DNA from: a virus
Virus record (IMG/VR): IMGVR_UViG_3300043449_001484
Span: 1-64,000 of that record
Strand: one strand, 5' to 3'
DNA length: 64,000 nt
Shown here piece after piece: positions 11,082 through 59,700 of the stretch. Within the stretch, counting starts at the first letter, position 1; each line of letters starts with the position of its first letter. The notes beneath the pieces are model-generated. The model saw nothing but the letters and a program-made list of their open reading frames with translations, searched no databases and had not been told where the DNA came from. Both the position numbers and the translations under genes were made by a program.

Positions 11082-11102
11082 ACTTTCTCCTTTCTGATCT
11101 GT

Positions 11103-11131: not shown

Positions 11132-11197
11132 GGACTTTTTATTCTCGAAAAACGGGGCCCATGTTGCCATAGGCCCCCAAATCCCACCAAGGAGCGC

Positions 11198-11223: not shown

Positions 11224-11229
11224 AAACCA

Positions 11230-17171: not shown

Positions 17172-17192
17172 TTCTGCTTTCTTGAAAGAAAA

Positions 17193-17221
17193 GGGCCCTA
17201 CTCCCTTACGGTTTCGGGCCC
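17193..17221 (-). terminator. Possible terminator after the 17228 gene
   Basis: GGGCCC at 17193-17198 and 17216-17221 can pair over a 17-base loop. On the minus strand the stem is followed by TTTTCTTT. It lies directly after the stop at 17228. It may attenuate rather than stop, since the primase gene begins at 17171. Confidence 0.5.
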
Positions 17222-17227
17222 GTCAAT

Positions 17228-17998: not shown

Positions 17999-18025
17999 GA
18001 TTAATGGTCCTTTCTTCGTGTGTCG

Positions 18026-18911: not shown

Positions 18912-18941
18912 TCCATTTCTCCTTTCTAAGATCGAGCAATC

Positions 18942-18971
18942 AGTATATACTCAGCTTTCGGGAATTTGCAA
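18942..18971 (-). promoter_or_regulatory. Promoter of the replication operon in the divergent region
   Basis: On the minus strand TTGCAA (18966-18971, itself palindromic) is 18 bases from TATACT (plus 18942-18947). The -10 sits in the perfect palindrome AGTATATACT (18942-18951), so the same bases offer a -10 to the plus-strand helicase gene at 18996. Confidence 0.6.
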
Positions 18972-18995
18972 CCCCCTTTAGAAAGAGAGATTGAT

Positions 18996-20447
18996 ATGGA
19001 TGAATTTTTGCAACGATACCCCTATAAAAATAAGCCCTTCCTACATCAAGAGGCTTATTTAACTCGCTTTTGGAGTAAGCAAGTGGCCGCTCTCTTTTCA
19101 GAGATGGGCACAGGTAAGAGTTTCATGTTGATCAACAATCTGGCTATGTTGTATGACCAAGGTCAGGTAAATGCAGCGTTGATCGTGGCTCCTAAAGGTG
19201 TCTACAGAAACTGGATGGACACAGAGATACCCAAACACATGCCAGAACACATTGTGTACCGCATGGCGCTTTGGACACCCTCCCCCAAAAAAGCAGAACA
19301 ACAGGCCTTGGATAATCTGTTTGAGATCACAGAGGATTTGAAAATCCTGATCATGAACATTGAAGCTTTATCCACTGATAAAGGCGTGAAATTTGCTAGT
19401 AGGTACTTACTTGCTCATGACGCATTTATGGCAATTGATGAGTCAACGACCATCAAAACCCACACTGCGGCACGGGCAAAGAATGCTGCCAAAATCGGTA
19501 AACAGGCCAAGTACAAACGTATTTTGACGGGTTCGCCTGTGACAAAAAATCCTTTAGACCTGTTCCAGCAGTGCGTGTTCCTTGATCCGCGATGCTTGGG
19601 TCATGATAGCTTTTACACGTTTCAGGCCCGGTATGCGGTGATGCAGGAGCGGCAGCTGGCGACCCATAGCTTTAAGCAGATTCTGGGCTTTCGGCATTTG
19701 GAGGAGTTGCGCGACAAGCTGGATAAGTTCAGCTTTAGGGTGACGAAGGACGAGTGTTTGGACCTGCCGGAAAAGCTTTACGCCAAGCGGGAGGTGGATC
19801 TAACCGAGGAGCAGGCTAAGGCGTACAAGGAGATGCGGCTGATGGCGCTGGCCCTGTTCAAGGAAGGCGAGGTGTCTACGGTGAACGCCTTGACCCAGAT
19901 CATGCGACTGCATCAGATCGTCTGTGGCCATGTGAAGCTGGACAACGGCGACGTGCTGGACTTACCAAATAACCGGATCAAGGAATTGATGAGCATTGTC
20001 GAGGAGTCCGACGGCAAGATGATTATTTGGGCTAATTACCGGCACGACATTGAGGCGATCCGGATGGCGCTGTCCTCGGTCTACGGCATGAACTCGGCGG
20101 CGGCATATTACGGAGATACGGAGACAAACCGGCGACAGGAGATCGTCAACGAATTCCAAGATCCGAACAGTCCTTTGCGCTTTTTTGTCGGAAACCCAAC
20201 TACGGGGGGCTACGGCTTGACCTTGACCGCTGCCAACCTTGTCGTTTATTACAGCAACAGCTTTGACTTGGAAAAGCGTCTGCAGTCGGAAGACCGGGCG
20301 CACCGCATTGGCCAGTCCAAAAACGTGACGTATATCGACTTGATCTGCCCCGGCACGGTGGATGAGAAGATTGTCAAGGCGCTAAGAGACAAGATAAATA
20401 TTGCCAATCAGGTGATGGGAGAGGAGTTAAAACAATGGCTTATTTAA
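18996..20447 (+). CDS. SNF2-family DEAD/DEAH helicase
   Basis: A 483-residue superfamily 2 helicase of SNF2 type. Walker A EMGTGKS (36-42), MAIDESTTIKTHTA as the DEAH-like box, and motif V/VI GLTLTAANLVVYY and EDRAHRIGQSKNVTYIDLI are clear. It may act in replication fork remodelling, recombination or removal of bound host proteins. It is on the plus strand, opposite to all but one other gene. Codon use changes from AT-rich (first third) to GC-rich after about 19600. The ATG follows AAAGAGAGATTGAT. Confidence 0.9.
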   Translation: MDEFLQRYPYKNKPFLHQEAYLTRFWSKQVAALFSEMGTGKSFMLINNLAMLYDQGQVNAALIVAPKGVYRNWMDTEIPKHMPEHIVYRMALWTPSPKKAEQQALDNLFEITEDLKILIMNIEALSTDKGVKFASRYLLAHDAFMAIDESTTIKTHTAARAKNAAKIGKQAKYKRILTGSPVTKNPLDLFQQCVFLDPRCLGHDSFYTFQARYAVMQERQLATHSFKQILGFRHLEELRDKLDKFSFRVTKDECLDLPEKLYAKREVDLTEEQAKAYKEMRLMALALFKEGEVSTVNALTQIMRLHQIVCGHVKLDNGDVLDLPNNRIKELMSIVEESDGKMIIWANYRHDIEAIRMALSSVYGMNSAAAYYGDTETNRRQEIVNEFQDPNSPLRFFVGNPTTGGYGLTLTAANLVVYYSNSFDLEKRLQSEDRAHRIGQSKNVTYIDLICPGTVDEKIVKALRDKINIANQVMGEELKQWLI

Positions 20448-21169
20448 TCCCTAAAAAAGACTTGTACGTTTACGAGCCCCTAGAGCGGATCGATTCACCC
20501 ACGGGGCGCACCTACCGTCGGGGAGACGACGCGCCTGTGTCCAGTGTGACTACCATTCTTGACCAGACGAAAGATAAGCGCACCTTGGACGCGTGGGTGG
20601 CGCGTGTTGGAGAGGCAGAAGCGGAGCGCATTAAGATGGAAGCCGCTCGCACAGGCACGGCAATGCACTTGGCTATAGAGTGTTTTCTTGATAGTAAGCG
20701 ATTACACCCACCGGAAGACTGGTTGCAGGCTCGCGGGTATGAGATGGGCTACCGGTTAATCAACAAGCACTTCTCCTCTTTAGAAGAGGTCTGGGGGCTT
20801 GAAGCACCGCTTTACTATCCCGGCAAGTACGCAGGCACAACGGATTTGGTGGGTTTATGGCGTGGAAAACCTGCCATTATTGACTTTAAACAAAGCCTAA
20901 AGCCCAAGCGCTATGAGTGGATCACGGATTATTTCCACCAATTATCGGCCTACGCTATGGCGCATGACGCCACATACGGCACCAATATTGATTACGCGGT
21001 GATTTTGGTAGCGGTGCAGGATGGAACAACGCAGGAATTCACGACCACGGGCCGCGAATTCGAGCGTCAAAAGAAGGAATGGATGGCGAGGGTAGAAGAT
21101 TTCCTCGCCAAGAAGGCTACTGAATCGTCGTATCAAACGGGAACAGACGCTTCAACATCTCCCGGCTAG
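20435..21169 (+). CDS. PD-(D/E)XK exonuclease (RecB/Cas4-like)
   Basis: A 244-residue nuclease. The RecB-like signature is visible: GTAMH (H78), E123, GTTDLVG (D137), AIIDFK (D150, K152) and QLSAYAMA (Q169). It probably degrades host DNA or processes ends for recombination, alongside the SNF2 helicase with which it overlaps by 13 bases. GAGGAG lies nine bases before the ATG. Its 3' end overlaps the convergent 1082-residue gene by 53 bases. Confidence 0.88.
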   Translation: MAYLIPKKDLYVYEPLERIDSPTGRTYRRGDDAPVSSVTTILDQTKDKRTLDAWVARVGEAEAERIKMEAARTGTAMHLAIECFLDSKRLHPPEDWLQARGYEMGYRLINKHFSSLEEVWGLEAPLYYPGKYAGTTDLVGLWRGKPAIIDFKQSLKPKRYEWITDYFHQLSAYAMAHDATYGTNIDYAVILVAVQDGTTQEFTTTGREFERQKKEWMARVEDFLAKKATESSYQTGTDASTSPG

Positions 21170-24100
21170 ACCCTCCACCTGCGGGTTGTGGGCCCACAGA
21201 TTGCGGTCCACCCCCACCAAGATTTAGCCCGGGGATACCTTTCGTAGGAACCGTAGTTGGCTGACGACGAGGTGTGACGCTCCGCTGAACCGGTGGCGCT
21301 TGAACCGTGGGCTCTGGAGCGGGTTCTTCAAAACGCTCGTAATTTAGCCCGGCAGCGGTCAAATACGCGTGCATTTGACGAGCCAAACGCAGTTGTTCGC
21401 CTTCTGTGACGCCTTTGCGCAAGAGCAAGGCCATCATCTGCGGGTCTTTGGTGGCCTCCTCAATGATGCCGCGAACCAAAAGCATCGGGGATTTGTCAAA
21501 AATTTGACGCATGTACTTCGAGCCTGCAGATGCTGCAATTAGGGATCCCGGGCCGCTGCCAGAAACACCCGTGCCGATACGGGAACCAACCACCCGCAAT
21601 GCTAGTTCAGTAGCCGCATCCGCACCTTGTACTACACCCTCCAACAATCGACGGTCATCCATGGATTGTTCTACCCGTTTCATCGGGTTAATAATGCGTT
21701 TAAGGTTTTTCCCTTCAGAAAGGGACATTACGCCTTGGGAACGAAGGAGGTTGTAAATAGAGGGTTGATCTTTTGCAAGTGGCTTAAAGAAAGCATCCTC
21801 AAAAGCCTGAGCACTAAAGCCCTTGTCTCCACCTGCCTTAGTGAAGGCATAATCGTAAAGGCTAGACTTTAACCCTGCTACTGCATCTGGCCCGCCCGCT
21901 TTGGCGAGCTTTGTGATGTTGCTGAGACTCTTAATGGGAAAGCGGCTGTTTAAGGCGTCCGCTACCGCCATCGTCGGCGACTCAAACTTTAATATTTGTG
22001 CAAATGCCGTCTGATTGCGCAGATTCTTTTGCATGACGCTGTTGCCAGATAGTGTGGCTTTCAGTGCGTTTTCTGCTTTCACAACGCTAGATAAATCGTC
22101 CGTAATCTGCAGTTTATCTAACAGCGGTTTTTGCTTTTCTACGAAACGTGTGAGACGAGAAACGCTCACCCGTCCAGTGTTGGGGTCGATTGTCTCAGCT
22201 GCTGCAAGGCGAAGAATGCGTTCTTGTGCGTCACGGATAGATACAACACGACCTTCAGATAAGTCAGCTAAGGGCTTCAAGGATTGGGCTTGAGCACTGT
22301 CACGACCAAATTTATTAACCGCATCATCATACTGACGACGCAACATGCCTACAGCATCTTCAATATCCGCCATACGCATGGCAGTAAGGTCATTATTAGC
22401 ACCAAAGGCACGTTGCACTAGCACCTCTGGAGGCAAAGCCGGTGCTCCAGTTGCCTTCTTCGCGAGCATTTCACCTGCAAAGCTACGGGTAAAATAATCG
22501 TTCAAAACACGAGAAAAATCACGAGCCTCGTTTAACTTTGAAGACTGTACTTTTGATAAGTCTTGCAACATGCCATCGGCTAATGAACCATAGAACCGTG
22601 TTTCGCTGTTCTCTCCTCTAACAGAAGCTTGACGCGATAAGTCTAAAAGATTGGAGCGAAGATTAACTAGATCAGGGAGTTCCGTTTCTTTTATTTTTGG
22701 CAAAAAAGAACTAGGGATCTTACCCGTTTCAGCAAACTCTGTTGTGTATTTCCCTTGCCGATACAGTGCAATAGCCTTGTCATCGATGCCTATACGAGAC
22801 ATAACGTCTTTAACAATCTTTGGCACTGTATCTTTATAGATGACTGGGTCAAGTTGAATCACTTCATCCAAAAACTTTTGTCCCGTATTAGTAGGAGCAA
22901 CAACAGGATACTTAACACGTGTGACTTCTTTTGTGGTGGTTAAAGGCTTACCACCCGGTCCCAATATTTTACTTGGCACACGTTCAGTAGATGTCACAAC
23001 AGAAGGGGTGCTGAGGCTATTTATAGCGTTGTCCCAAAGAAAACGCTCATGTTTACGGGCATCCGACAGTGATTCATAAGTCGCATCGCGAACGATCTCC
23101 CCAATCTGCTGACGCGCTTCAGGAGTGTCTTTGCTAATGTTACGAATCTTTTGTGCTGCATTGGCCAAGGCAATGCCTTGACGATTGTCGAGCATGGCAC
23201 TAAACGCCTCTTGCCGCAATTGTGCAGCGGCACGAAGTGCCTGAGGCGTTCCTATGTCACTCAAGTTTTTAGCAAGAAGTTCATAAGCAGTTAGCGTCGT
23301 TTTGGCTTGTTCTGCAATCTCGCCGCCATATTTGGCATTACCTGTTGCAAGCGTGTTTTCAAGAACACTTAAAGCACGTGAGCCGGTCTTTTGTGCTGCA
23401 GTAGGTTGTGCTCCTCTGGGTAAGTTTGCCTCTAGCGCACGAATAACCTTATCAATATCTTCTCCAGAATCCTGCAAAATAGAATAGAGCTTATTTGCAG
23501 CACGTGCTTCTTTTGCGTCCTTAGAAAAGGCAGACATAACATTTCCTGCCAATGCTTTGGCAGAACCAAGGTGTATGAATAGCCTTGAAGGCGCAAGCAC
23601 GCCTCCAGTAACTTCTGCTAAAAGCCTTGTGCCGGGTTCCCCGGGCGCAGTCTGTTCTGCAACTCCTGCACCAGCACCGGCACCCGCCCCAGAAACGACC
23701 TCTGCGGTCAGGAAGGATTTTGGATATTGCTGGGCTGTTCTGCCCATTCCTGCTAATACGTCAGTAAAAAAGCGTGAAGCACGTGCAGCCCCCTCCATGC
23801 CAAATTTTGCGGCAACGGGAATAGATAAACGAATAGCTTGAGATAAACGCTCTGCTTGTGGAACAGGGATGTTAAATGCAATAGGAGCCAACGCAATCGT
23901 ATCGCCCCATGTCTTACCGCCTTCACGATAAGGTACTAAATCCTGACGCGAAACACCGGGATATTTAATATCAAAGTTGTCCCCTAATAGGCTACCCACG
24001 CCTATTCCCACCATAGTGCCACCTGCAACCCCTAAAGGCGCATAAGAACCCATATAGGGAGCTGCTGCCATACCTGCACGAAAACCAACTATTCCACCTG

Positions 24101-24365
24101 TTGTTGCAGGAGCAGTACGCGTCATTCCCTCAAGCAGGCCATAGCCTACTTCAGTCGCCTTTTCTCCAACAGTAGGTTCTCCAGCTCCGGAAATAGTTTC
24201 CAAAGTTTCAGGTAGTCCCGTAATGGGATTGATCGCGCCTTGCACACCCCCTGTAGACGCAGGAGCTACACCTGTTGGAGGTGCACCACTCAATAGTTCG
24301 GATGCGCGACCCGCCCCGCCGGGGGCAGACAAAGCTTCTAACTGTCTTTGGATATCATCAGCCAT
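21117..24365 (-). CDS. Large internal virion protein candidate (1082 aa)
   Basis: A 1082-residue protein with a Gly/Ala-rich hydrophobic region near residues 75-135 (GGIVGFRAGMAAAPYMG, GVAGGTMVGIGVGSLLG), a second Gly/Ala segment (VVSGAGAGAGAGVAEQ), then a long helical body. The Pro/Thr-rich C-terminus (VTPRRQPTTVPTKGIPG) looks disordered. Size, composition and place among virion genes fit an ejection or internal core protein of a podovirus. No enzymatic motif is visible. It starts by TAATG overlap with the upstream gene. Confidence 0.6.
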   Translation of the reverse strand: MADDIQRQLEALSAPGGAGRASELLSGAPPTGVAPASTGGVQGAINPITGLPETLETISGAGEPTVGEKATEVGYGLLEGMTRTAPATTGGIVGFRAGMAAAPYMGSYAPLGVAGGTMVGIGVGSLLGDNFDIKYPGVSRQDLVPYREGGKTWGDTIALAPIAFNIPVPQAERLSQAIRLSIPVAAKFGMEGAARASRFFTDVLAGMGRTAQQYPKSFLTAEVVSGAGAGAGAGVAEQTAPGEPGTRLLAEVTGGVLAPSRLFIHLGSAKALAGNVMSAFSKDAKEARAANKLYSILQDSGEDIDKVIRALEANLPRGAQPTAAQKTGSRALSVLENTLATGNAKYGGEIAEQAKTTLTAYELLAKNLSDIGTPQALRAAAQLRQEAFSAMLDNRQGIALANAAQKIRNISKDTPEARQQIGEIVRDATYESLSDARKHERFLWDNAINSLSTPSVVTSTERVPSKILGPGGKPLTTTKEVTRVKYPVVAPTNTGQKFLDEVIQLDPVIYKDTVPKIVKDVMSRIGIDDKAIALYRQGKYTTEFAETGKIPSSFLPKIKETELPDLVNLRSNLLDLSRQASVRGENSETRFYGSLADGMLQDLSKVQSSKLNEARDFSRVLNDYFTRSFAGEMLAKKATGAPALPPEVLVQRAFGANNDLTAMRMADIEDAVGMLRRQYDDAVNKFGRDSAQAQSLKPLADLSEGRVVSIRDAQERILRLAAAETIDPNTGRVSVSRLTRFVEKQKPLLDKLQITDDLSSVVKAENALKATLSGNSVMQKNLRNQTAFAQILKFESPTMAVADALNSRFPIKSLSNITKLAKAGGPDAVAGLKSSLYDYAFTKAGGDKGFSAQAFEDAFFKPLAKDQPSIYNLLRSQGVMSLSEGKNLKRIINPMKRVEQSMDDRRLLEGVVQGADAATELALRVVGSRIGTGVSGSGPGSLIAASAGSKYMRQIFDKSPMLLVRGIIEEATKDPQMMALLLRKGVTEGEQLRLARQMHAYLTAAGLNYERFEEPAPEPTVQAPPVQRSVTPRRQPTTVPTKGIPGLNLGGGGPQSVGPQPAGGGSSREMLKRLFPFDTTIQ

Positions 24366-34081: not shown

Positions 34082-34858
34082 CTAATCACTTGATTGTAAA
34101 AGAGTTTCGGTCAGTTTGGATAGGTCTGCTTTGGTGTACTTTTGATAAGACGATTGCAGGTTTTCCGGCATGGGTACTTCTTCAATTACAGCACCCGTTT
34201 TTTGGGATATTTCTTTAGCTATTTCTAAAAATGAAATAGTCCGACCAGTGCCGAAGTTCCATACTCCAGACTCCTTGATATCAAAAAAGGCCTGATGTAG
34301 CTCTATGACTTTCTCACACGAAATGAAGTCCCTGCGATAATGGTTGCTGCCCTCAAAGACTCGAATCCTACCCGTCAAAGCCTGCTGATTAAATTTGTGA
34401 AAGGGTGACGCCTGATCCCCTTTGTGATCCTCATACCGCCCATAGACGTTGAAGTAGCGAAATAACTGCACAGGTGCTTTTGGGCTGATCCGCTCTACGT
34501 ACTGCTCCACCATACGCTTGGATTCAGCGTATAAATTGGCTGGACGGCAGACGTCGTCTTCCCGAAAAGTGATGTTTTCCTTGCCATAAACAGACGCAGA
34601 ACTAGCTATCTGAATAGGGATTCTGCGGTTTTGGCATCGGTTTATAAGATCCACCGAAAACTGGTAGTTGTACCGGACAAGCGCGGGCCAATCGGTGCAA
34701 GTCGTTTGGGTTATTGCCCCAAGGTGCAAAACCCTGTCTATGCCTTCCAGCGTATATTCCCCGTCCTCTGGTTCATAGAGGACAAGATCATGCTCTGCTA
34801 AAGCCTTGACCATGTTTTGGCCTATAAAGCCTTTATAGCCTGTCAGAAAGATACGCAC
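34082..34858 (-). CDS. hldD: ADP-heptose 6-epimerase-like protein (HldD/RfaD family)
   Basis: A 258-residue NAD-dependent sugar epimerase. Rossmann motif LTGYKGFIGQ (7-13), YAESK catalytic Tyr/Lys, and the HldD-like FRYFNVYG, KGDQASPFHKF, GRIRVFEGSNHYRRDF. HldD converts ADP-D-glycero- to ADP-L-glycero-beta-D-manno-heptose for LPS core. It is shorter than the usual about 310 residues, mainly by loop loss. It overlaps the kinase gene upstream by 16 bases, forming the end of the heptose module. Confidence 0.82.
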   Translation of the reverse strand: MRIFLTGYKGFIGQNMVKALAEHDLVLYEPEDGEYTLEGIDRVLHLGAITQTTCTDWPALVRYNYQFSVDLINRCQNRRIPIQIASSASVYGKENITFREDDVCRPANLYAESKRMVEQYVERISPKAPVQLFRYFNVYGRYEDHKGDQASPFHKFNQQALTGRIRVFEGSNHYRRDFISCEKVIELHQAFFDIKESGVWNFGTGRTISFLEIAKEISQKTGAVIEEVPMPENLQSSYQKYTKADLSKLTETLLQSSD

Positions 34859-35583
34859 TCGACATCCTCCTTAGACAAAGCATAAACCCCAAGATGACCA
34901 CATGAGATAGCCGCCATCCTATTGGCAGTCTCCAGAGCAAAATCTATGTTTTTTGTTTTGGCGTGGGCGTAAGCAAAAGATGCCAGAAAAGTATCCCCAG
35001 CCCCACACACATCAACAATCTCAGACTGGAAGGCGGGGTAGTTTTTGCCCATGTAAAAGCAACCAGAAGCTCCATCAGTCACAATAAGCTTCTTAGGGCT
35101 AGGCAGGGATATAGCTTTCCTGCGCTCTAGGCTATTTATCTTTATGTAAGTATTGTCAAATAACCTTAGATCCTGTTTCTTGGTGTCTAGGTAGATTTCC
35201 CCATCAAACCTTTCACGGATCTTCTTTATTGCGTCGTAGGAAATATAGCCTTTGTTGTAGTCTGAGATGACAATAAAACCATACGGGCCATAATCTCTGT
35301 GCTCATATTCAACGCAATCAAGGTCTTCATCAACCCTCATAAGAATACGCCCAGACTTATTGTCAACGTATCTTATTTTCTTTGAGATATTCCCAATCGG
35401 AACAGAAATATCAACATCCAACATAAAAGCCTTGAGGTTCATGGCTACGTTGTAAGCCATACCCTTTTTAGCCTCTACGCTAATAAGATCCAACAAAGGC
35501 ACTGGGGCTTCAGGATTGAGCCTTTTTACTATCCCATACCGATACTCATCGATACAGGTATCACCTATTACTAAAGCTTTCAT
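34843..35583 (-). CDS. Heptose-7-phosphate kinase-like protein (HldE domain 1, PfkB)
   Basis: A 246-residue ribokinase-family kinase. The start VIGDTCIDEYRYG with RLNPEAPVPLLDL matches the HldE/RfaE N-terminal domain, and the C-terminus has the catalytic DVCGAGDTFLASFAYA. HldE domain 1 phosphorylates D-glycero-beta-D-manno-heptose 7-phosphate. It is shorter than typical (about 315), so loops are reduced. Here it is a separate gene from the nucleotidylyltransferase, with the cupin gene between. Confidence 0.8.
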   Translation of the reverse strand: MKALVIGDTCIDEYRYGIVKRLNPEAPVPLLDLISVEAKKGMAYNVAMNLKAFMLDVDISVPIGNISKKIRYVDNKSGRILMRVDEDLDCVEYEHRDYGPYGFIVISDYNKGYISYDAIKKIRERFDGEIYLDTKKQDLRLFDNTYIKINSLERRKAISLPSPKKLIVTDGASGCFYMGKNYPAFQSEIVDVCGAGDTFLASFAYAHAKTKNIDFALETANRMAAISCGHLGVYALSKEDVECVSF

Positions 35584-35942
35584 TGCTGGCTATCCCCCGG
35601 AAATACCCTGTAGTTATCAGCAGACGTATCAGCGGTGGATACTTCAATAACTTTACCAGCCTCCAAACAGATCAACTGGTGAGGAAGTAACGGAATGTTG
35701 CGCCAAACATCGCCGACATTTAGTTCTATTTCTTTTATATCAGCGTTGTTTGTGTCAATAATTAAAAGACGAAATTTACCCTCCAGTACATACCAAGTCT
35801 CATCTTTTATTTTGTGAAAGTGCATGGAAAACTTTGCGCCTTGGTTAAAGTGCAAGATCTTCCCCGCATAGCCATAAGTGCTTGCCCAGATTTCTTCATA
35901 GCCCCAACCTTTAGGAACTATTTCCTTTTTGCATTTTTCCAT
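35580..35942 (-). CDS. Cupin, sugar isomerase-like (120 aa)
   Basis: A 120-residue single-domain cupin: KGWGYEEIW, then FSMHFHKIKDETWYVLEGKF (His-x-His and Glu metal ligands) and LLPHQL. It resembles the cupin half of type II mannose-6-phosphate isomerases and sugar-nucleotide modifying cupins. Its substrate is probably the heptose or another hexose phosphate in the same pathway. The ATG has AAGGAT eight bases upstream and overlaps the upstream gene by 32 bases. Confidence 0.65.
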   Translation of the reverse strand: MEKCKKEIVPKGWGYEEIWASTYGYAGKILHFNQGAKFSMHFHKIKDETWYVLEGKFRLLIIDTNNADIKEIELNVGDVWRNIPLLPHQLICLEAGKVIEVSTADTSADNYRVFPGDSQQ

Positions 35943-36318
35943 ACTGGATAATCCTTGTTGTTGAGTGGCCTTCAACAAAAGAAATAATGACCACTCTGGC
36001 TAGGCCATAGCCAACAACCTCCGATGGCGTGTAGTCCCCTCCTTTTGTAATGATGGCTGGATTTATTGTTTTTACAAGATTTAGCGGCGTATCTTCATCA
36101 AACACAACAACATCATCTACACACCGGAGGGCTTTTAAAACTGCCACGCGGTCTTCTACGCAGTTTATGGGGCGGTCATTTCCTTTAAGCCTTCTAACAG
36201 ACTCATCAGAATTGACCCCCACCACTAAACGATCACCAAGCTTTCTTGACTCGTTTAAATAATCTACGTGTCCACGATGGATGATGTCAAAACACCCATT
36301 TGTAAACACGGTGATCAT
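35911..36318 (-). CDS. Heptose-1-phosphate nucleotidylyltransferase-like protein (HldE domain 2)
   Basis: A 135-residue cytidylyltransferase-family protein with FTNGCFDIIHRGHVDYL (HRGH nucleotide-binding motif), GVNSDESVRRLKGNDRPI and FVEGHSTTRII (STTRII). This is the pattern of the HldE/RfaE C-terminal domain, which makes ADP-D-glycero-beta-D-manno-heptose from the 1-phosphate and ATP. No GmhA isomerase or GmhB phosphatase gene is in the window, so those steps must come from the host. Confidence 0.82.
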   Translation of the reverse strand: MITVFTNGCFDIIHRGHVDYLNESRKLGDRLVVGVNSDESVRRLKGNDRPINCVEDRVAVLKALRCVDDVVVFDEDTPLNLVKTINPAIITKGGDYTPSEVVGYGLARVVIISFVEGHSTTRIIQYGKMQKGNSS

Positions 36319-38074: not shown

Positions 38075-39088
38075 TTATGCTGCGATCTTTAATTGCAAAC
38101 GATCTTCTAATGCTTTTTTGATATTAGCCATAGGCTCATCCCAATTTCCGTATTGGGTTTGTCTAAATAGCCGAGCGGAATCATACCAAGGTGAAGTGCT
38201 TCCCGGCAATGCCCAGCAGTAATAAGGCAATATCGGCACCAGAACCCATGTCTCTACACCCAGTGCAGCAGCACAGTGGGCTACAGACGTACAGGAAGTG
38301 ATGACTAGATCGAGGCTTTTCAAGATGCTGGCAGTTTGCCGCCAGTCAGTTAGCTGATCTTTAAGATCCCCGAACGGCAGGAACTCCATTAGGTCATGGT
38401 CACGCTGCAAGGAATAGAACGTAGTCCCCGGCAACTGATGCAGGTCAATCAGCGGCGTAGGGTCAAACTTCCTGTGCTGCTCATGCTCAAACTGCGGATT
38501 GCCTGACCATTTAACGCCGACCTTCAAGGTACCGGGGCGCTCATACATATCTCGCTTGGGCGCATCCAGATAGGCTTTACCTATCATGTCCTCGTACTCG
38601 TATCCAATGGCATACCCCGCTGACATACCGGGCACCCAGTAGTCATAGTAGACACCGCCAGCCTCTGCCGCACCGTTAGATACCGGAGTAAAACCATTGT
38701 CGGCAAAGAACCCCATCAGGCTGGGATGGCAGGATACGATGACCTTAGCGCCCAGCTCCTCAAAGTCACGAGCAAACCTGACGTTCATGATCTCGTCGCC
38801 ATGACCGCCCTCTGAGCGGAAGAGCAGAGTCTTGCCATGCAGATCCTCGCCTGACCATATCTGCCCCGGCAGCGCGGGAGAGCCAAATACATTCAGGAAC
38901 CGGCCTGCATTCATCCCGTTAAATCCTTGGCGTAGCTTGCCGTGGCGCATGTCATGCCAGCCAAGATTAAAGATGATGCGAAGATCGTCCGGTTGATCCT
39001 CTAGCTTCTTACGCAGCAGATCCTCGGCTATATCGGGATAGCCTTGGATTGCTGCTTGTAGGGCAATGTCTACGTTTTCAGTTGTCAT
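38075..39088 (-). CDS. TPR and GT9-like glycosyltransferase (337 aa)
   Basis: A 337-residue protein. The N-terminal about 65 residues form a TPR-like helix pair (GYPDIAEDLLRKKLEDQPDD). The rest resembles the GT9/ADP-heptose:LPS heptosyltransferase superfamily: LLFRSEGGHGDEIMNVRF, LKVGVKWSGNPQFEH, DLVITSCTSVAHCAAALGV and LVPILPYYCW. It would use a nucleotide sugar, plausibly the ADP-heptose made by the neighbours. It overlaps the RCC1 gene start region by ATGA. Confidence 0.72.
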   Translation of the reverse strand: MTTENVDIALQAAIQGYPDIAEDLLRKKLEDQPDDLRIIFNLGWHDMRHGKLRQGFNGMNAGRFLNVFGSPALPGQIWSGEDLHGKTLLFRSEGGHGDEIMNVRFARDFEELGAKVIVSCHPSLMGFFADNGFTPVSNGAAEAGGVYYDYWVPGMSAGYAIGYEYEDMIGKAYLDAPKRDMYERPGTLKVGVKWSGNPQFEHEQHRKFDPTPLIDLHQLPGTTFYSLQRDHDLMEFLPFGDLKDQLTDWRQTASILKSLDLVITSCTSVAHCAAALGVETWVLVPILPYYCWALPGSTSPWYDSARLFRQTQYGNWDEPMANIKKALEDRLQLKIAA

Positions 39089-42000
39089 GACGTTGCTAAT
39101 CCGCCTGTAAAAGTGCTTCTAGCATTAATTCCGGAAACCCAATTCGTAAGCGTTCCTACCTGCACTGGTGATGATCTATTTGTTGTTGTGCCATCACCAA
39201 GTTGTCCTGCGGCGTTTACGCCCCAAGCCCAAATAGTCCCATCATTTCTTAAAGCATAGGATGAAGTGCTTGCCGTAAACACATCAACCCAAGTTGTAAG
39301 AGTTCCTATCTGCACAGGGGAGGATCTATTGGTGGTTGTTCCATCGCCAAGATATCCCCCAGAGTTACTGCCCCAAGCCCAAAGAGTTCCATCAGTTTTT
39401 CTGGCAAGCATAAAATCCGCTTGATTAGATACAGCAATTTTTGACCAGTTGGTCAACGTCCCTACTTGGACTGGGGAAGATCTCGAAACAGTTGAGCCAC
39501 TACCAAGAGCGCCAGAGGTTCCCGCGCCCCAAGTCCACAGCGTCCCGGTTGTTTTGATTGCGCCTGTTTGATTGCCCTTTGATGCGACAGCCCAATCAGT
39601 TAATGTTCCAACTTGAGTTGGCGAAAGTCTTGTGACTGTATCACCAAGGCCAAGAACGCCATTGTTGCCATTGCCCCATGCCCATAAAGAGCCATCAGTC
39701 TTAACTATATCGGTACTCCAATTAGTCAGCGTACCTATTTGAACAGGAGAAGAAACTGATGGTAAATAAATATAAGCAGGAACAACAGCGGTTGTATCGC
39801 TTGGCCCTGTATAACCATATCCCCATGATGCAATAGTGTTGTCTGTTTTTTGGGCTACAACTACGCCATTTGTTACATAACTCCCAGAAATTAATCCAGA
39901 GTATCCTGTACCAATCTGGACTGGCCCTGATTTACTTGAAGTCGTACCATCACCCAAAAATGATCCTAATCCAACAGACCACAATGTATTATCGTTTTTT
40001 ACAAAAAAAGAATTTGAATCAGTATTGAAAGAATATGCCCAGTTATTTAATGTTCCAACCTGAACAGGAGATGAATATGTAACAGTATTACCGAGGCCCA
40101 GTTGACCAACATTGTTTTTCCCCCAAGACCATAACGTACCGTCAGTTTTTACAGCAGAAACAGATCCATTAAAGTTTGTTGAAGAAGATTTCATGTAAGA
40201 CCAGTTGGTCAATGTTCCAACTTGAATTGGAGATGATTTAGCAGTAACTGTTCCATCGCCTAATTGACCTTGAGCATTATCTCCCCATGCCCACAATGTT
40301 CCGTCATTTTTAATGGATAAACTTGAATAGGATGCGGTAAATAATTTACTCCAATTAGTCAAAGTTCCTACTTGCCTAATCAAATAATTACTAGTTACAT
40401 CTCCTTGCCCAAGCTGCCCATATCCGTTATACCCTGCAGACCATAATGACCCATTTGTCCCTCGCAACAAAACATAACCGTCATTATTTGAACCACCATA
40501 AACAGAAGCATCTGCCCAAGTAGAAAGTGTTCCTACTTGAATTGGAACAGGTACTGGAGATGGAACGCCAACACCAAGAACATAATAAGGCGCCGTTCCA
40601 CTACCATTGGTATTGTCCCCACATGTCCAAACTTGGTTACTGGTATTTTTAAAATAACTTCTGGTGTATGGCGTACCTGTTCCCAAAACTTTTATATCCG
40701 TCCAACTCGTAAGAGTCCCTATCTGTACCGGAGAACTTCTGTTTGTTGTATCACCTAAACCTAATTGTCCAACAGAATTATTCCCCCATGACCATATGGT
40801 TCCATCATTTTTTAATGCAACGGAAGTTTCGCCACCAGCGGCAATCTTTGACCATGTAGTCAATGTCCCAATTTGGACTGGAGAAGAATAATTTGTTGCA
40901 TTATTTGTTCCTAACTGACCGCTGGGGTTGTACCCCCATGCCCACAATGTGTTGTCATTTTTAAGAGAAATCATGTAATTATTTCCAACACAAATACTTG
41001 ACCAGTTAGTCAAAGTTCCAATTTGTATTGGAGATGATTTATCTACAGTTGTTCCATCGCCAAGCTGCCCAAAAGTGTTAGCGCCCCAAGACCATAATGT
41101 TCCATCTGTTTTAATGGCACCAACAGAATAATTTGCTTCAGAAACACTTAACCAATTAGTTAGCGTACCAATTTGTGTAAGAGATGATTTATTAATGGTT
41201 GTGCCATCACCTATCTGACCAGCATTATTTGCTCCAGCGGCGTAAAGCTCTCCTGTTGTATTAATAAAATAGTTTGTTATAAAACCAGTAGAAGCTTTAG
41301 ACCAGTTACTTAAAGTTCCAATCTGAATCGGAGAAGAATAAGTAGTAAGGTTGCCTACCCCAAGCTCTCCATAATTTTGCGTGCCCCATCCCCATAAAGT
41401 TCCATTTGATTTAATCCCAAGAGAAGTTGCGCTTCCATCGGATATAGAAGACCAAATATTTGTGTCAATTACTTGAGGGCCAGAAGAACTAGTAACAGTT
41501 CCATTTCCTATTTGGGAATTAGAATTATTCCCCCATCCAACAAGGTACCCTTCTTGAGTAAGAGAATGAGTTACATATCTTGAAGATCCACTATTTCCTA
41601 ATGTCCCATAAGATAAGGCAATTTGTACAGGGGATGAAAATGCGGCTGTATTTGCAAGATTAGTGGCTGATGGCCCATGCACATATCCAGCTCTGTCCCC
41701 CCATGCCCACAACGTACCATCTGTTTTGATTGCAAGAGAGTAATTATTGCCAGAATAAACCTTAGACCAGTTAGTCTGAGTTCCTATTTGGATGGGAGAA
41801 GATCTCCATAGCGTTGTGCCATCCCCTAACTGATAAGAATTATTATTTCCTGCGGCGTACAAAGCACCGCTTTTAATATAAAGACCGCCAGTGCCATAAC
41901 TTACGTCTGAGTATTGGCTGTCCGTAAATTGAGTTGGGAAGGTAAGTGATTGATTAGCAGTACCCCACGTGCTATTACCAAGCTCGCCATTTGTATTGCT

Positions 42001-43461
42001 ACCCCAACTCCACAATGAGTTGTTGATTTTTATCGCACTAGCGGTAGAATTACCCCCGTTGTAAACTGATTTCCAATTAGTTAGCGTTCCAATTTGAGTT
42101 GGCAAAGAGCGGTCAAGTGTTGTTCCATCACCTACTTGCCCTACGTTATTACCCCCCCATCCCCACAAAGATCCATTCTGGGCGACCGCTACCATAGCCG
42201 TAGATAGTCCTGCTACAGAAGCATATTTGCGTGTACCAAGATCCACTACTTGCGGGGTTGAGAAGTTTGCTGCGCCTAACTGGCCTGATGCATTTCCAGC
42301 GTTTCCTCCGTTCCAGTTATACCCATCGGTAGTTGCAAATAATGAGGCATTAACACCCATCGCAATAAAGGTGCAATCACTTCTGGCTCCAATTTGGATT
42401 GGGCTACTGTAGCTCGCTGTGGTTTGAACACCAAACTGACCTGCGTTATTTACACCCCAAGCCCAAATAGTCCCATCAGATTTTTTTGCCGCTGCTGAAG
42501 ATGTTTTAAGCGAAATATCATTCCATGTTGTTAGGGTACCAATCTGCACAGGAGAAGACTTGTTTACCGTAGACCCATCACCAACTTGCCCGGATGTGTT
42601 TAATCCCCATGCCCACAAAGTGCCGTCTGTTTTTAAGGCAACAAAAACGTTAGTCCCCGCAGCAACTTTGCTCCAGTTACTTAACGTGCCAACCTGAACT
42701 GGCGAACTTCTTGAGGTAGTTGCGCCTGAACCTAATTGACCATCATTGCCTTGCCCCCATGTCCATAGGGTGCCGTCATTTTTAACGGCAGCGCATGAAA
42801 GAAGACCTGCTACAGCGTAAGTCCAAGTAGTTAGTGTCCCAATTTGAATAGGGGATGATTTACTAATTGTCGTGCCATCCCCCAATTGACCATTACCATT
42901 ACCGCCCCAAGACCATAGCGTTCCATCCGTTTTAATAGCAACAGAAGTGGATGCTTGACCCCCCACAAGGCTCCAGTTAGTTAATGTGCCAACTTGAACG
43001 GGGCTGCTGTAGGTAGTTAGATTACTGGTGCCAAGAACGCCAGAAGGGTTGTTGCCCCACCCCCATAAAGAGCCATCTGTTTTGATTGCTTGGGCATAAT
43101 TAAGCCCAACATTAATTTGACTCCAGTCAGTCAAAGTCCCAACTTGAACGGGTGAATTTCTTGCGGTAGTGGTTCCGTCTCCAAGCGTTCCAGTGCCGCC
43201 CGGCCCCCATGCCCACAACTGACCCGTTGCAGTAATAGCTAGGGTATGGTTTGCACAACCACCAGTCACAAACGTCTTCTTAAGCGCAACAGCAACAGGC
43301 GAGCTACGACCAACAGTAGCCGTAACAAGGCCAATCCCTAAACGACCGTTAGTATTAGCCCCCCATGAATACAAATAATTGCCGACTAATCCTGCTGCTC
43401 CAGATATAAACTGACCCCACGCCCGTGAGGTCATCGCAGCCAAACGTGATGCGATAGGCAT
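39085..43461 (-). CDS. Giant RCC1-repeat protein (28 repeats, 1458 aa), probable fibre/receptor-binding protein
   Basis: After about 30 residues the protein is 28 tandem RCC1-type repeats of about 50 residues, each with a TLWAWG-like strand, a GQLGDGTT-like loop, SSPVQIGTLTNW and an A/S-IKTDG end. Twenty-eight is four times seven, so four seven-bladed beta-propellers are likely. Repeats 8, 12, 19 and 24 are the most divergent. I count these repeats by reading the protein. It sits between glycosyltransferase and fibre genes. A receptor-binding role is inferred from location. Confidence 0.8.
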   Translation of the reverse strand: MPIASRLAAMTSRAWGQFISGAAGLVGNYLYSWGANTNGRLGIGLVTATVGRSSPVAVALKKTFVTGGCANHTLAITATGQLWAWGPGGTGTLGDGTTTARNSPVQVGTLTDWSQINVGLNYAQAIKTDGSLWGWGNNPSGVLGTSNLTTYSSPVQVGTLTNWSLVGGQASTSVAIKTDGTLWSWGGNGNGQLGDGTTISKSSPIQIGTLTTWTYAVAGLLSCAAVKNDGTLWTWGQGNDGQLGSGATTSRSSPVQVGTLSNWSKVAAGTNVFVALKTDGTLWAWGLNTSGQVGDGSTVNKSSPVQIGTLTTWNDISLKTSSAAAKKSDGTIWAWGVNNAGQFGVQTTASYSSPIQIGARSDCTFIAMGVNASLFATTDGYNWNGGNAGNASGQLGAANFSTPQVVDLGTRKYASVAGLSTAMVAVAQNGSLWGWGGNNVGQVGDGTTLDRSLPTQIGTLTNWKSVYNGGNSTASAIKINNSLWSWGSNTNGELGNSTWGTANQSLTFPTQFTDSQYSDVSYGTGGLYIKSGALYAAGNNNSYQLGDGTTLWRSSPIQIGTQTNWSKVYSGNNYSLAIKTDGTLWAWGDRAGYVHGPSATNLANTAAFSSPVQIALSYGTLGNSGSSRYVTHSLTQEGYLVGWGNNSNSQIGNGTVTSSSGPQVIDTNIWSSISDGSATSLGIKSNGTLWGWGTQNYGELGVGNLTTYSSPIQIGTLSNWSKASTGFITNYFINTTGELYAAGANNAGQIGDGTTINKSSLTQIGTLTNWLSVSEANYSVGAIKTDGTLWSWGANTFGQLGDGTTVDKSSPIQIGTLTNWSSICVGNNYMISLKNDNTLWAWGYNPSGQLGTNNATNYSSPVQIGTLTTWSKIAAGGETSVALKNDGTIWSWGNNSVGQLGLGDTTNRSSPVQIGTLTSWTDIKVLGTGTPYTRSYFKNTSNQVWTCGDNTNGSGTAPYYVLGVGVPSPVPVPIQVGTLSTWADASVYGGSNNDGYVLLRGTNGSLWSAGYNGYGQLGQGDVTSNYLIRQVGTLTNWSKLFTASYSSLSIKNDGTLWAWGDNAQGQLGDGTVTAKSSPIQVGTLTNWSYMKSSSTNFNGSVSAVKTDGTLWSWGKNNVGQLGLGNTVTYSSPVQVGTLNNWAYSFNTDSNSFFVKNDNTLWSVGLGSFLGDGTTSSKSGPVQIGTGYSGLISGSYVTNGVVVAQKTDNTIASWGYGYTGPSDTTAVVPAYIYLPSVSSPVQIGTLTNWSTDIVKTDGSLWAWGNGNNGVLGLGDTVTRLSPTQVGTLTDWAVASKGNQTGAIKTTGTLWTWGAGTSGALGSGSTVSRSSPVQVGTLTNWSKIAVSNQADFMLARKTDGTLWAWGSNSGGYLGDGTTTNRSSPVQIGTLTTWVDVFTASTSSYALRNDGTIWAWGVNAAGQLGDGTTTNRSSPVQVGTLTNWVSGINARSTFTGGLATS

Positions 43462-43471: not shown

Positions 43472-44860
43472 TTATGCAAACTGAGTCTGAGATGCAAAGA
43501 CAGTGAATGTCGCAGCGCCCGTCTTGACGATGGTGTACACATAAGCGTCAATACTGCTGGCGTTACCTGAGCTTGGTGCTGCACCACCCTGCCACTTGGG
43601 CGTTATGGCATTACCATCTACTTGAACCGCGTTGTTGTAATACGGCGTTGCGCCCTGTGTAACCAAGAAAGCCACAGTAATACTTTCGCCTGTTGCCATT
43701 GCAGTATCCAAGGAGGTGCCGCCGCTTGCGCGGAAGTTCACCGTCCAGTTGGCTGCTGCATTACTGGTGTAATACAGAACAGACTGTGTGGTTGCATCAT
43801 AGTTAATCGTACCTGTTGCTGCCGTGGCGGATACTGTTACAGCCTCCAGCGCGTTTACAAACTTGGATGCAAGGACGCTCGTCGAGCCGGAGAACGTCTG
43901 CTTTGCAGTGAATGTGGTTGAAATAGCCGCAGCTGCAAAGCTCGAAAAGGAAAGATTGCCCGAGCCATCCGTAGAAATACCCTGACCAGACGATCCGTCC
44001 GTTGCAGGCAAAACATACGTCAGGTTTGAGGCCACCGATGCCGGAGCTTTTAACCCAATGTAATTAGTGCCATTGTCCGTATCTTCATACAAACGCAAAT
44101 CAGCTGCCGAAGACGAAGTTCCGGAGACATTTATCGTCCCAGTAAACGTCGGCGCTCCAGCATCATCCAAAGTCGCGCCCGTCGAGTTCTGGAGCAACTT
44201 GCCCGTGGTTAGATCAAACCGGGCAAACGCATTGTCGGTAGACGACGCCGGTCCAACAACGTCACCTCCCAAACCTGTCGCATTAATCGTAATCGACCCA
44301 GAGCCATTTGTGATTGTGACCCCGGTTCCCGCCGTAAGCGTCGCCTTCGTTAAGGTGTTACCAGTGCTGTTGCCAATCAAAAGCTGACCATCGGTGTACG
44401 TAGTTTGACCCGTACCTCCGGATGGAACAGGTAACGCCGACCCAAGCGTTAAAGAAGTGGCGTGATTAGTTACATCAACAACATTCGTCGCGTTGTTGAA
44501 AACGATCATCGTCTTACCCGCAGGCACCGCAATACCCGTTCCTGTCGAGTTCTTGACAGTAACGGTATCCGCAAGGCCGTTATTGACGATGTACTGTTTC
44601 TCAATCGCAGGAACAATCAGGTTCCTAGCGCCACCAGACGTCCCCGTCAGATTCAGACGCAAAGCCCGCGCATTCTGCGCAGCATTCGTATCCGTCAGTG
44701 TCAGCGTTACGTCTCCGCTGGAAAACGAAACGTCCGCCGAACCTGTAATGGCCTGCTCAATAGCAGTACCAAGATTGGTGTTTGTAGTTGAACCCCACGT
44801 ACCTGATTGCTCGCCCGTAGCAATGAGTTCTATCTTGAGATCGCTATATGTACTTGCCAT
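43472..44860 (-). CDS. Tail fibre protein (462 aa)
   Basis: A 462-residue protein with the N-terminal MASTYSDLKIELIATGEQSG, TWGSTTNTNLGTAIEQAITG start that marks a large group of phage tail fibres, then Gly/Thr/Ser-rich beta repeats (GSALPVPSGGTGQTTYTDGQ, LLIGNSTGNTLTKATLTAGTG). The C-terminus is a beta domain (YYNNAVQVDGNAITPKWQGG). It probably attaches to the tail and carries the receptor-binding RCC1 protein next to it. Confidence 0.75.
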   Translation of the reverse strand: MASTYSDLKIELIATGEQSGTWGSTTNTNLGTAIEQAITGSADVSFSSGDVTLTLTDTNAAQNARALRLNLTGTSGGARNLIVPAIEKQYIVNNGLADTVTVKNSTGTGIAVPAGKTMIVFNNATNVVDVTNHATSLTLGSALPVPSGGTGQTTYTDGQLLIGNSTGNTLTKATLTAGTGVTITNGSGSITINATGLGGDVVGPASSTDNAFARFDLTTGKLLQNSTGATLDDAGAPTFTGTINVSGTSSSAADLRLYEDTDNGTNYIGLKAPASVASNLTYVLPATDGSSGQGISTDGSGNLSFSSFAAAAISTTFTAKQTFSGSTSVLASKFVNALEAVTVSATAATGTINYDATTQSVLYYTSNAAANWTVNFRASGGTSLDTAMATGESITVAFLVTQGATPYYNNAVQVDGNAITPKWQGGAAPSSGNASSIDAYVYTIVKTGAATFTVFASQTQFA

Positions 44861-44872: not shown

Positions 44873-45637
44873 TCAAGCCGCATCCACTTCTACCCAAGTG
44901 ACACTTTGCGAGTCATCCACCACGGACCAGCTACTTGCTTGGGCATCGTTGACCGCCACCCAGTTAATGGTCTGTGAATCATCCACGATAGTCCACCCCC
45001 CTATCGTAACCGACCCTACTGCCCCCGTGCCAACTACCCCAGTGACTATCTTACTATCGTCTATCTCGACCGAAACGGTGCCTAATATTGCAGTCGCAGA
45101 CACCCCGGAAACCGTAATCGTCTCATTTGTCGACGCAACAACTGTTCCAACTGCCCCCGTCCCGACCACACCAGAAACGGTGATCGTGGTGTCAATGACA
45201 AACGAAACAACACCTATCTGCCCTGTCCCGACTACACCAGTAGGCTGGTAATCCGTGTCAATCTGGAAGGTAACCGTACCTACATCACCGGTTCCTGAAA
45301 CACTGTCTGACGTAACCCGAATTAAAGGAACGACGTCTGAAACAAACCCGCTTCCTTCTACTCCAGTCAGGGTTACTGAACTGAAAATATAAACAGAAAC
45401 GGCACCTATACTGCCAGTGCCGTTAACGCCATTCGGAACAACGATGTCGTCAACGACGACTTGGAAACCACCAACTAAACCAGTCCCATCAACTCCTGTT
45501 GGTACAACCGAAACGACAACGCCGACCGTGCCAACTGCACCAGTGCCAGAAACACCAGTTACAGAAAGCTCTTCAAGATCAAGGCCCCAAGAGCCCCTGC
45601 TCCAAGGACCTGAACCCCATCCGACGTAGTCCGCCAC
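44873..45637 (-). CDS. Repeat-rich fibre-like protein (254 aa)
   Basis: Nine repeats of about 22 residues with core V-x-G-V-x-G-T-G-x-V-G-x-V, then three VDDSQ-x-W-type repeats at the C-terminus. Strict beta repeats suggest a fibrous trimer. The N-terminal MADYVGWGSGPWSRGSWG is distinct. No function beyond probable virion fibre. Confidence 0.6.
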   Translation of the reverse strand: MADYVGWGSGPWSRGSWGLDLEELSVTGVSGTGAVGTVGVVVSVVPTGVDGTGLVGGFQVVVDDIVVPNGVNGTGSIGAVSVYIFSSVTLTGVEGSGFVSDVVPLIRVTSDSVSGTGDVGTVTFQIDTDYQPTGVVGTGQIGVVSFVIDTTITVSGVVGTGAVGTVVASTNETITVSGVSATAILGTVSVEIDDSKIVTGVVGTGAVGSVTIGGWTIVDDSQTINWVAVNDAQASSWSVVDDSQSVTWVEVDAA

Positions 45638-56757: not shown

Positions 56758-59700
56758 TTATTCCTCACCCTTGTTTTTGTACTTCAGGTAGTCTTGGTAC
56801 TCGTTGCCCCAGTCAACCGTCTTTGCTTCTTCTAGTCGATCACCTGTACGCGTGCTGCTGTAAGTATCGGACTTGAATGAAGTGGGGCCCAGATTGTCAA
56901 ACAGCTCGAATAAAGCTTTCTTTTCTTCCGGAGTGGGCATGCTGTTGAACTTGGATTTGATCTGCGTGATCTCTAAGCCCTTGTCGTCCGTAAACTTAGA
57001 CTCCACGGTGACCTGCGGGATACCTTTTTCATTACGAAGTGAAAACACGCGGGCCAACCCAGACTCAAATGCAGGCTTGCCACCCAAGTTGTAGCTGCTG
57101 CTGGTCTTGTAGCCACCAATTGAATGACGCATTGCTGCGCCTTCCAACTCCACCGCGTCAGGCGTCATGATGCGAACCCACTTCTGATCCTTGCTCAATT
57201 CATACACCGGGTTCGTGCCTTGGAAATAAATCTCCTTAGGCACCGGTTTGCCCGCTTTCGCATTATCAATAACCGCTTCCCAGTCGCGCTTGAAACGCAT
57301 ATTCTGCGCGCCTTTAATCACGGCCTCAGGGAAACTCATACGACCTAGTTCTCCCACTGGGATGGACGCAATACCTTGCGCAACATTCCTTGCATTCATG
57401 AAGTCTGTGTAGGTTCCCATTACATCGTAGATGGGCTCGCCTTTTTCAGCGGCATAAAGAAGCGATTGTTCACTACCTTTAAGTTCCTTTAGAAAGGCTT
57501 CTCTGCGCTTGGCTTCAATCGCTGGATCATCAATCTTTGACCCTGCAGAAACCATTAATCTAGCCAATTCTTTTCTTGCTGGAGTACTATATTCTGATAG
57601 TAGTTGATCCATTTTAGTTGGAGTAGGGTAATCTGGATTCATGAGTTCAGGCTCAACCCCTTCTGCCGCCATACGTTCACGCATCCCACGATCTGCCTTG
57701 CCACTGACTGCATACGCAGTTCCCTCCATGTCAGGGGGAACATAGCTTATTGCGCGAATTCCCGTAGCTTGATCATAAGCTTTTTCTAAATCCTGCAATG
57801 CCTCGGGATCGCCTGATTCAGCAGCCTTCATCAAATAACTACGGAATCGTTCTTTATCTGAACCGTATCTAGGTAGCCGACCTTCCAACAGCGCAGCACG
57901 CAATGGATCATCTGACGTGCCGTAAGCGGTCGTCAAATACTTGCGACCCTTCGTGCGGATAAAGTCCGCTACCGTCTTCGCATCCTTGCCTGCCAGCGTT
58001 TCCGATGACGATAGACCTTTAACTATGTCGTTCAAATAATCATCCATCCGCGAACCATACTCGGGCGGGAAAAACGTGCCACCCTTGGGCTTGACAGCGT
58101 ACATCGGTCCAAGACCTGCTTTTTGCAGTTGACGTTCTGCCATCCTTCCAGCAGTCGGACCCAATTCTTCCAACGCCTTCTTAGCTCCCGTCTTCGCGCC
58201 CTTGGCCACCTTCGTTGCCGTGCCCGCAGGGATCGGCAGAGGCAAATAAGTACCTACCTCCTCAAACCCCGCCGCTTCCTTTGTCGGCTTGGTCATGCGA
58301 CCCGGCATGTAATCCCGCAGAACTTCTTCTGTCGTCGCGAATTTGCGCGTCTTGTCGCTGTCCCTAAAGATCGACTCAATGTCCCCCACTGATCCGGGGA
58401 TCGCGGCTACTGAACCACGCAACCCGGACTCCACATTTGACGCACCCTGACCGTAGATGTCCTTTAACGTGCGCAACACCTCGCCCGCACTTACCCCACG
58501 CCTGTTCAAAAGTGCTGCCATCGTGTCCGGCGTAATGCCTCCGGTGTCCGGCATCTCGCCGTACACGGGCGACCCGTCTGCGCGCTTGACGGGCTTCTTG
58601 GCAGGCACTGCCAAATCAACTTTACGGCCCGTTCCCGGCGGCAGTTTACGACCAGCATACAAACGCAACTTGTCCATCAAAGTATTATCATCACTGATGT
58701 AGTCACCAATAAAGTCGCTATCCGAACGAACTCCACGCTTCGATGTCAATGGGTTAAAGTCGTACTCATCAATAATCTTGTAGCTATCGGTCTTTGGGTC
58801 ATACTCGTAATTAAACTGACCCAGCGACTTAGACAAAGAAATGTAGGGATCAAGACGGCCTGAAGTCAAAGGGTACTGCTTGATAGGGCGATCTCCTAGC
58901 AAAGCCTTGTAGTCCTTATACGACATTGACCCTTTTTTGCCGCCCTTACGAGAGATGAGATCGGCTAACGCATCCATCTCTTCCTGATTAAAATATTCCT
59001 TCGTTACCGGCGCGCGGTTTTCCTTTACCCCAAAAGTATCCAGATAAAGTTTATGCGCAGCCGACATCTTTGATTTATCAGCAGGGATTAGGTCCGCTCC
59101 CTTAATACCAGCGCTCATCAAAAAGTCGGAAACATTCGCGCCCATGCGCTCGCCAAAGGTAGGCTCAAGCACATAGCCTTCCGCAGTCACCGGCGAGCCC
59201 TCGGCACGGTGAACTGCACCGCCGTGGGCAAAAGACTGCGGCACGATGTCCGGGGTCTTCACGTTCGGACCAAACTTGGGCTGGCCCAGATTCAAGCCCA
59301 CCTTTTTTCCCACATCTTGGATCACAGACAAATCCTGCCAACGCGACGGTAACGACCTACCCCCCGTGCCATACTGAAACGCTGCATTCACTAAAGACTG
59401 CTCTGGATTATTGGACCGTGAGACGCTATACGCCGTCCTGCCCACATTAGCCGCTGTACTCAAAGGAATCTGCGTGCCCGGCACCATCACCGGTGCTGTG
59501 GCCACGGGCACTGATCCGGGGGCCAAGGCACTCGCGCCACTGCCCAGATTTAATGCACTACCTAAGGCATTTCCCCCAAGATACGCAAACGCGGCTTTGG
59601 TAATCGGAATCGTAGCCTTTTCCAAAAATCCCTGTATCCCGCCACTGCCTTTGTTCTTCCAACGCAAATACTCGTTGTACCTGTCCGCCGCCGTGCCATA

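Follow-up and report, generated by a model that had tools for sequence, protein, structure and literature searches.

A phage protein of 28 RCC1 repeats as a proposed exchangeable adhesin of the tail fiber tip

Analysis of 64,000 nucleotides of viral DNA (here called the window; 64 kb of the 67,995-bp IMG/VR virus record IMGVR_UViG_3300043449_001484) suggests that a minus-strand gene at positions 39085-43461 encodes an exchangeable receptor-binding adhesin, carried on the tip of the fiber encoded upstream and with a body of four RCC1 propellers; we put the probability of this reading at roughly 0.7. The product, a 1,458-residue protein here named RCC1x28, was recognized from its open reading frame (ORF), its matches to the Pfam RCC1 family and RCC1-like domain, and profile-tiled repeats. 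In the mechanism that we propose, the fiber would end in a conserved tip domain, and the first ~18 residues of RCC1x28 would plug into or onto it. The body would consist of four seven-bladed RCC1 propellers, in tandem and free of linkers, in which the loops between strands 1 and 2 and between strands 3 and 4, on one propeller face, would vary fast and the opposite loops would be conserved. Several binding faces in a row would then give avid contact with structures on the host surface, probably glycans.

The RCC1 gene lies directly 3' of a tail fiber gene (43472-44860, minus strand, 462 residues), separated from it by a gap of 10 bp. The fiber protein matches PHROG tail fiber family phrog_31660; its N-terminal part matches annotated tail or tail fiber proteins of HTVC023P, HTVC027P, 023Pt_psg01, and MinM2, and the final ~110-140 residues have matches among proteins of Roseobacter phages, cyanophages, and podovirus ctXG6705. 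This C-terminal fiber-tip domain (fiber residues 320-462; 43475-43903, minus strand) has 238 relatives in IMG/VR and is 79% identical to a protein of ctXG6705, the next gene of which is annotated as a gp38 adhesin; a scan of bacterial genomes for the domain returned one relative, in a Magnetococcales metagenome-assembled genome (possibly phage DNA). We defined the slot as the gene following the fiber-tip domain and read 80 loci. Slot genes almost always open with a motif of ~18 residues, MPxxxRxAxxSAxGFGxF, a docking-type motif whose version in the window is MPIASRLAAMTSRAWGQF (residues 1-18; 43408-43461, minus strand) and which is identical in the window protein and its two orthologs, from loci L135 and L136, except at residue 4. 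A motif expression matched 71 of 77 slot genes; because it was derived from the slot genes themselves, the telling figure is the number of background matches. Among ~2,600 other ORFs there were six matches, five of which were slot genes (the window gene, ctXG6705 gp38, CRP-3 gp29, the next gene of L196, and the RCC1x7 gene of L066), with one left unexplained. The slot had been overlooked in an earlier note on this DNA, made from the sequence alone (the original prediction).

Bodies that are unrelated to one another stand behind the shared motif: Gly_rich_2 (gp38-like), Laminin_G_3, DUF7483, and RCC1x28. The slot gene of ctXG6705, annotated as "phage tail fiber adhesin gp38," starts MPLLQRTGSMGAKGFGLT. 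At locus L066, the same motif heads a single seven-repeat propeller, the fiber-tip domain upstream is 64% identical to that of the window, and TPR/glycosyltransferase-like and methyltransferase-like genes come next after the slot gene, as in the window. A second leader motif, GVWTL..AAGxWP, also heads RCC1, laminin-G-like, and Gly-rich bodies. Judging from the shared motif, RCC1x28 probably docks by its N-terminal peptide. With somewhat better than even confidence, we further propose that the fiber-tip domain and the ~18-residue peptide form a plug-in platform taking at least four unrelated bodies (Gly-rich, laminin-G, DUF7483, and RCC1), the RCC1 body changing only in whole propellers (7, 14, 21, 28, 35, or 42 repeats), so that receptor class and avidity would be switched in a single gene swap. 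DUF7483 (PF24299; found in L149 and L152) is apparently the body that most often follows the docking-type motif, with a cluster of 46 slot genes, and its frequency in the slot suggests a receptor-binding function for this uncharacterized domain.

A comparable arrangement is known for gp38 of T2/S16/PP01-type phages, which, like RCC1x28, is encoded directly downstream of a fiber gene. T2-type gp38 is located at the tip of gp37, attaches through its N terminus, and determines the receptor, and a swap of the first 113 gp38 residues restores fiber compatibility (PMC12892980). The likeness extends to the slot of the relatives, which holds Gly-rich proteins, one of them annotated as gp38. However, the body of RCC1x28 is predicted to consist of RCC1 propellers throughout, whereas that of gp38 is a polyglycine sandwich, the two bodies being without sequence relation; likewise, the shared motif here spans ~18 residues, compared with the 113 residues swapped in PP01. 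By analogy, the best reading is that RCC1x28 would work like gp38 but is no gp38, and it is not filed as such because the gp38 body is absent.

The variability of the repeats points in the same direction. Because the strands alternate, loops that follow strands 1 and 3 share one face of the propeller, and loops that follow strands 2 and 4 occupy the other. Among the three orthologs, the loop tips between strands 1 and 2 and between strands 3 and 4 (columns 6-9 and 38-41) show a divergence of 0.37-0.85, compared with 0.05-0.46 for the opposite-face loops (after strands 2 and 4), and the same contrast is seen within RCC1x28 (2.65 versus 1.07 bits). The original prediction had placed the protein next to a fiber gene and suggested that it may bind glycans or host surface proteins; a fiber or receptor role is supported and can be narrowed to that of a fiber-tip protein, while a glycan as the putative ligand is a guess made by analogy, on account of the fiber and the sugar genes nearby. 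RCC1x28 might instead be a structural part of the virion or fiber, such as a stalk, collar decoration, or whisker, rather than the receptor-binding tip: the detection of RCC1 proteins in other virions leaves their position unspecified (PMC11370258, PMC5259590), and tandem propellers could merely lengthen a fiber. We consider such a role unlikely, since relatives use the same slot for Gly-rich gp38-like or laminin-G proteins that begin with this N-terminal motif, a single-propeller version occupies it in L066, and one blade face is hypervariable among the orthologs.

The composition of RCC1x28 is regular. From its ATG start, a 29-residue lead is followed by exactly 28 contiguous RCC1 repeats, with nothing C-terminal to them. 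A looping repeat-profile search tiled residues 30-1458 without gaps into repeats of 49-62 residues, which scored 43-131 in the real protein and at most 24 in shuffled copies, and Pfam matched RCC1 (PF00415) with an E value of 3.5e-163 and the RCC1-like domain with one of 1.3e-202; profile tiling and the shuffle control bear out the count of exactly 28 in the original prediction, and Pfam agrees with the assignment to RCC1. Repeats 8 and 12 score low with the generic family profile (12 and 21), occupy one-repeat gaps of 51 and 58 residues, and are placed alike in two orthologs. Irregular repeats 8, 10, 12, 13, 19, and 24 are genuine, each having a counterpart at the equivalent place in both orthologs. 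Misassembly is common in repetitive genes and might have inflated the repeat number, an explanation that we regard as extremely improbable because, at 58-66% identity, all 28 repeats appear in unchanged order in the independent contigs L135 and L136 and because the repeats are too diverged at the DNA level for Tandem Repeats Finder (TRF) to detect an array.

Within the protein (all coordinates on the minus strand), a short linker (residues 19-29; 43375-43407) separates the motif from repeat 1. The repeat tiling then gives proposed propeller 1 (repeats 1-7, residues 30-381; 42319-43374), proposed propeller 2 (repeats 8-14, residues 382-738; 41248-42318), proposed propeller 3 (repeats 15-21, residues 739-1109; 40135-41247), and proposed propeller 4 (repeats 22-28, residues 1110-1458; 39088-40134). 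Proposed propeller 2 holds the most irregular repeats (8, 10, 12, and 13), which are kept in place in L135 and L136. No linker is present at repeat junctions 7/8, 14/15, and 21/22.

A division into sevens is indicated by the relatives, in which repeats were counted for complete RCC1 ORFs from both viral contigs and phage records. Among the distinct complete viral ORFs, the numbers of repeats pile up at 7 (n = 149), 14 (n = 7), 21 (n = 3), 28 (n = 3), 35 (n = 1), and 42 (n = 1). Multiples of seven make up 15 of the 17 long complete ORFs with an unambiguous count, one-repeat gaps being allowed (binomial P of ~2e-11 if the ORFs were independent, which relatives are not); a 19-repeat ORF (L048) was left out of the counts because it begins no more than 10 bases from the contig start. 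In two 14-repeat proteins (L226 and L230), an immunoglobulin-like (Ig-like) domain interrupts the chain exactly between repeats 7 and 8, and in L108 a collagen-like stretch directly follows repeat 7. Such spacers exactly after repeat 7 therefore argue for both the size and the register of a seven-repeat unit. A far longer array is seen in L002 (IMGVR_UViG_3300009151_002763, 6114-22844), where one unbroken ORF of 5,577 residues holds ~99 or more RCC1 repeats, with three Gly-rich inserts of 265-286 residues and exactly seven repeats after the last insert. Loci L003-L006, L009, L034, L091, and similar ones carry three to six clustered single-propeller RCC1 genes with differing leaders, an alternative to propellers fused in one chain.

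Two AlphaFold2 models support the blade fold. Model 1 covers residues 1-1109 and was built from an uneven alignment; model 2 covers residues 739-1458 (repeats 15-28), with an alignment built from 14-repeat rows. Proposed propellers 1, 3, and 4 are represented in model 1, both models, and model 2, respectively. Model 1 shows four-stranded RCC1 blades, with a predicted local distance difference test score (pLDDT) of mostly 86-96 at residues 110-360; pLDDT was below 50 for residues 1-68, and the unevenness of the alignment accounts for the stretches, several in number, that fall below 50. Its match to seven-bladed UVR8 had a template modeling score (TMt) of 0.78 and an E value of 2.7e-32, and other matches in the PDB were HERC2 and RPGR, the three proteins also matched by proposed propeller 1. 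Model 2 has blades throughout, with a mean pLDDT of 78.8 over residues 739-1458, better than model 1. On the repeats and models together, four closed seven-bladed rings in tandem would be the best inference. As to the "4 x 7 propeller" of the original prediction, the count of 28, the multiples of seven, the spacers after repeat 7, and the fold matches speak for it; closed rings are not proven, ring closure being only partly reproduced in the models and not clean in model 2.

Several points weigh against our reading. The PDB matches of model 2 have TMt values of ~0.4-0.6 and root mean square deviations of mostly 8-10 Å, so that this model does not yield clean, closed rings of seven blades. Because the proteins counted are related, their repeat numbers are only partly independent, and the similarity between repeats seven apart (lag 7) is not elevated (P = 0.55), which indicates that no propeller was recently copied from another. 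A register test using blade-position profiles from 136 single propellers found offset 0 to be the best for the window (P = 0.034); this position-specific test has low power, and we do not rely on it because its control recovers few known registers (35 of 136). Relaxed constraint could give the same loop variability, and the presence of RCC1x28 in the virion and its binding are matters that we infer. Some of these points would suit a continuous array, e.g., a spiral with approximately seven blades per turn in place of four closed rings: the junctions between proposed propellers lack linkers, the rings of model 2 are not cleanly closed, and lag 7 is not special. We judge a spiral to be quite unlikely, as it would not require the relatives' counts to be multiples of seven, foreign domains enter the chain precisely behind repeat 7, and model 1 fits a seven-bladed protein.

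The number of repeats does not appear to be in flux. The orthologs in L135 (1,464 residues) and L136 (1,461 residues) are 58-59% identical to the window protein and 66% identical to each other, and all 28 repeats are kept in order; from this comparison, the number 28 appears to be stable across deep divergence. Mean identity is 0.41 both for adjacent repeats and for all pairs (P = 0.62), the most similar pairs lie far apart (5 and 26, 3 and 17), and TRF detected no DNA tandem array within the RCC1 gene. The high similarity of repeats 2-6, 16-18, and 25-28 had been taken to suggest internal duplication or ongoing recombination, a view that these values do not support: the repeats in question are simply those nearest the consensus. 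Recent tandem duplication and ongoing recombination were rejected because neighbors are not more alike, TRF found nothing, and the orthologs are collinear. Duplication at the level of propellers was likewise rejected, given the lag-7 result; similarity is higher at lag 21, but this signal is weak (P = 0.003, uncorrected over 11 lags tried).

RCC1-repeat proteins are common in phages; 70 phage records contain them, and a pattern scan of viral contigs found at least 120 stretches. RCC1 repeats in phage virions are already known, with three RCC1-like proteins in virions of phage W70 (PMC11370258) and a detection also in those of GAP32 (PMC5259590). These phrog_4219 proteins (W70_237-239, GAP32 gp1, and the PBECO4/121Q/phAPEC6 copies) have the same RCC1 repeats as RCC1x28; the GAP32 and PBECO4 proteins, at ~385 residues, amount to one propeller, with several separate genes in some phages, whereas RCC1x28 has four propellers' worth in one chain plus the fiber-slot motif. 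In Pseudomonas phages PollyC and Littlefix, RCC1 repeats are C-terminal in a protein named or predicted to be a tail fiber (named so in Littlefix; in PollyC there is a weak match to a T7-fiber-like N terminus, below the Pfam cutoff), fused to the fiber itself and not in a separate tip protein; other relatives have RCC1 arrays after collagen-like or Ig-like stretches. Eukaryotic RCC1, UVR8, and HERC2 share the repeat family and predicted blade fold, UVR8 being the best match in both sequence and fold, but they have one propeller per domain, and the canonical RCC1 histidine (GxxHT, in the strand 3-4 loop) is nearly absent from the window protein (1 of 28 repeats, compared with a median of 29% in relatives). 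There is no reason to expect Ran exchange activity in a bacterial-virus protein.

A function in condensing DNA, or in the inner head, has been considered for such proteins. For the RCC1-like proteins of jumbo coliphage phAPEC6, DNA organization was proposed by analogy with eukaryotic RCC1, in a passage that gives no experiment (PMC7247149), and the PHROG category "DNA, RNA and nucleotide metabolism" and record annotations agree with it. For RCC1x28, we regard this as very unlikely: the gene sits between fiber and sugar-enzyme genes, the protein carries the N-terminal motif of the proposed tip adhesins, and related RCC1 arrays follow collagen-like or fiber domains.

The virus genome carries genes for a large terminase, a portal, and a major capsid protein and is related to phages such as DSL-LC04 and Pelagibacter phage HTVC023P. 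The RCC1 gene is followed by that of a 337-residue TPR/glycosyltransferase-like protein (38075-39088, minus strand), identified from the gene order in the window, L066, and S-SRM01; Pfam and PHROG searches gave no match for it, and by eye it resembles the end of a 590-residue protein in the same place in L066. Genes for a nucleotide-sugar epimerase (34082-34858), a PfkB-family kinase (34843-35583), and an HldE-like adenylyltransferase (35911-36318) are grouped at 34082-36318 on the minus strand, resembling a phage-carried ADP-heptose pathway. Just upstream of the fiber gene is a 254-residue protein of short degenerate repeats (VSGVxGTGAVGTVxV; 44873-45637, minus strand), and L066 has a repetitive protein of similar kind ahead of its fiber genes (8973-9944). 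Two minus-strand ORFs of 1,751 and 1,082 residues (56758-62013 and 21117-24365) matched nothing in PHROG and, above the cutoff, nothing in Pfam; the former is flanked by terminase and portal, a position occupied in DSL-LC04 by a PcfJ-like protein.

In the literature (open-licence papers only), we found no description of RCC1 propellers as phage receptor-binding proteins. What appears to be new is the chain of four propellers, the multiples-of-seven rule, and a shared docking-type motif that stands ahead of RCC1, Gly-rich, and laminin-G bodies alike in the same slot. If our reading is correct, many phage proteins labeled "regulator of chromosome condensation" or "DNA condensation protein" would move from DNA biology to host recognition; for phrog_4219, phrog_7220, and phrog_16766, which PHROG files in the DNA category named above, both context and virion proteomics in the literature favor a virion or tail category. 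Multiples of seven would provide a simple counting rule for architecture, and a compact docking motif would allow fiber-tip adhesins of uncultured phages to be found and classified. A small pair of fiber tip and docking peptide would thereby explain the exchange of whole receptor-binding folds in these phages.

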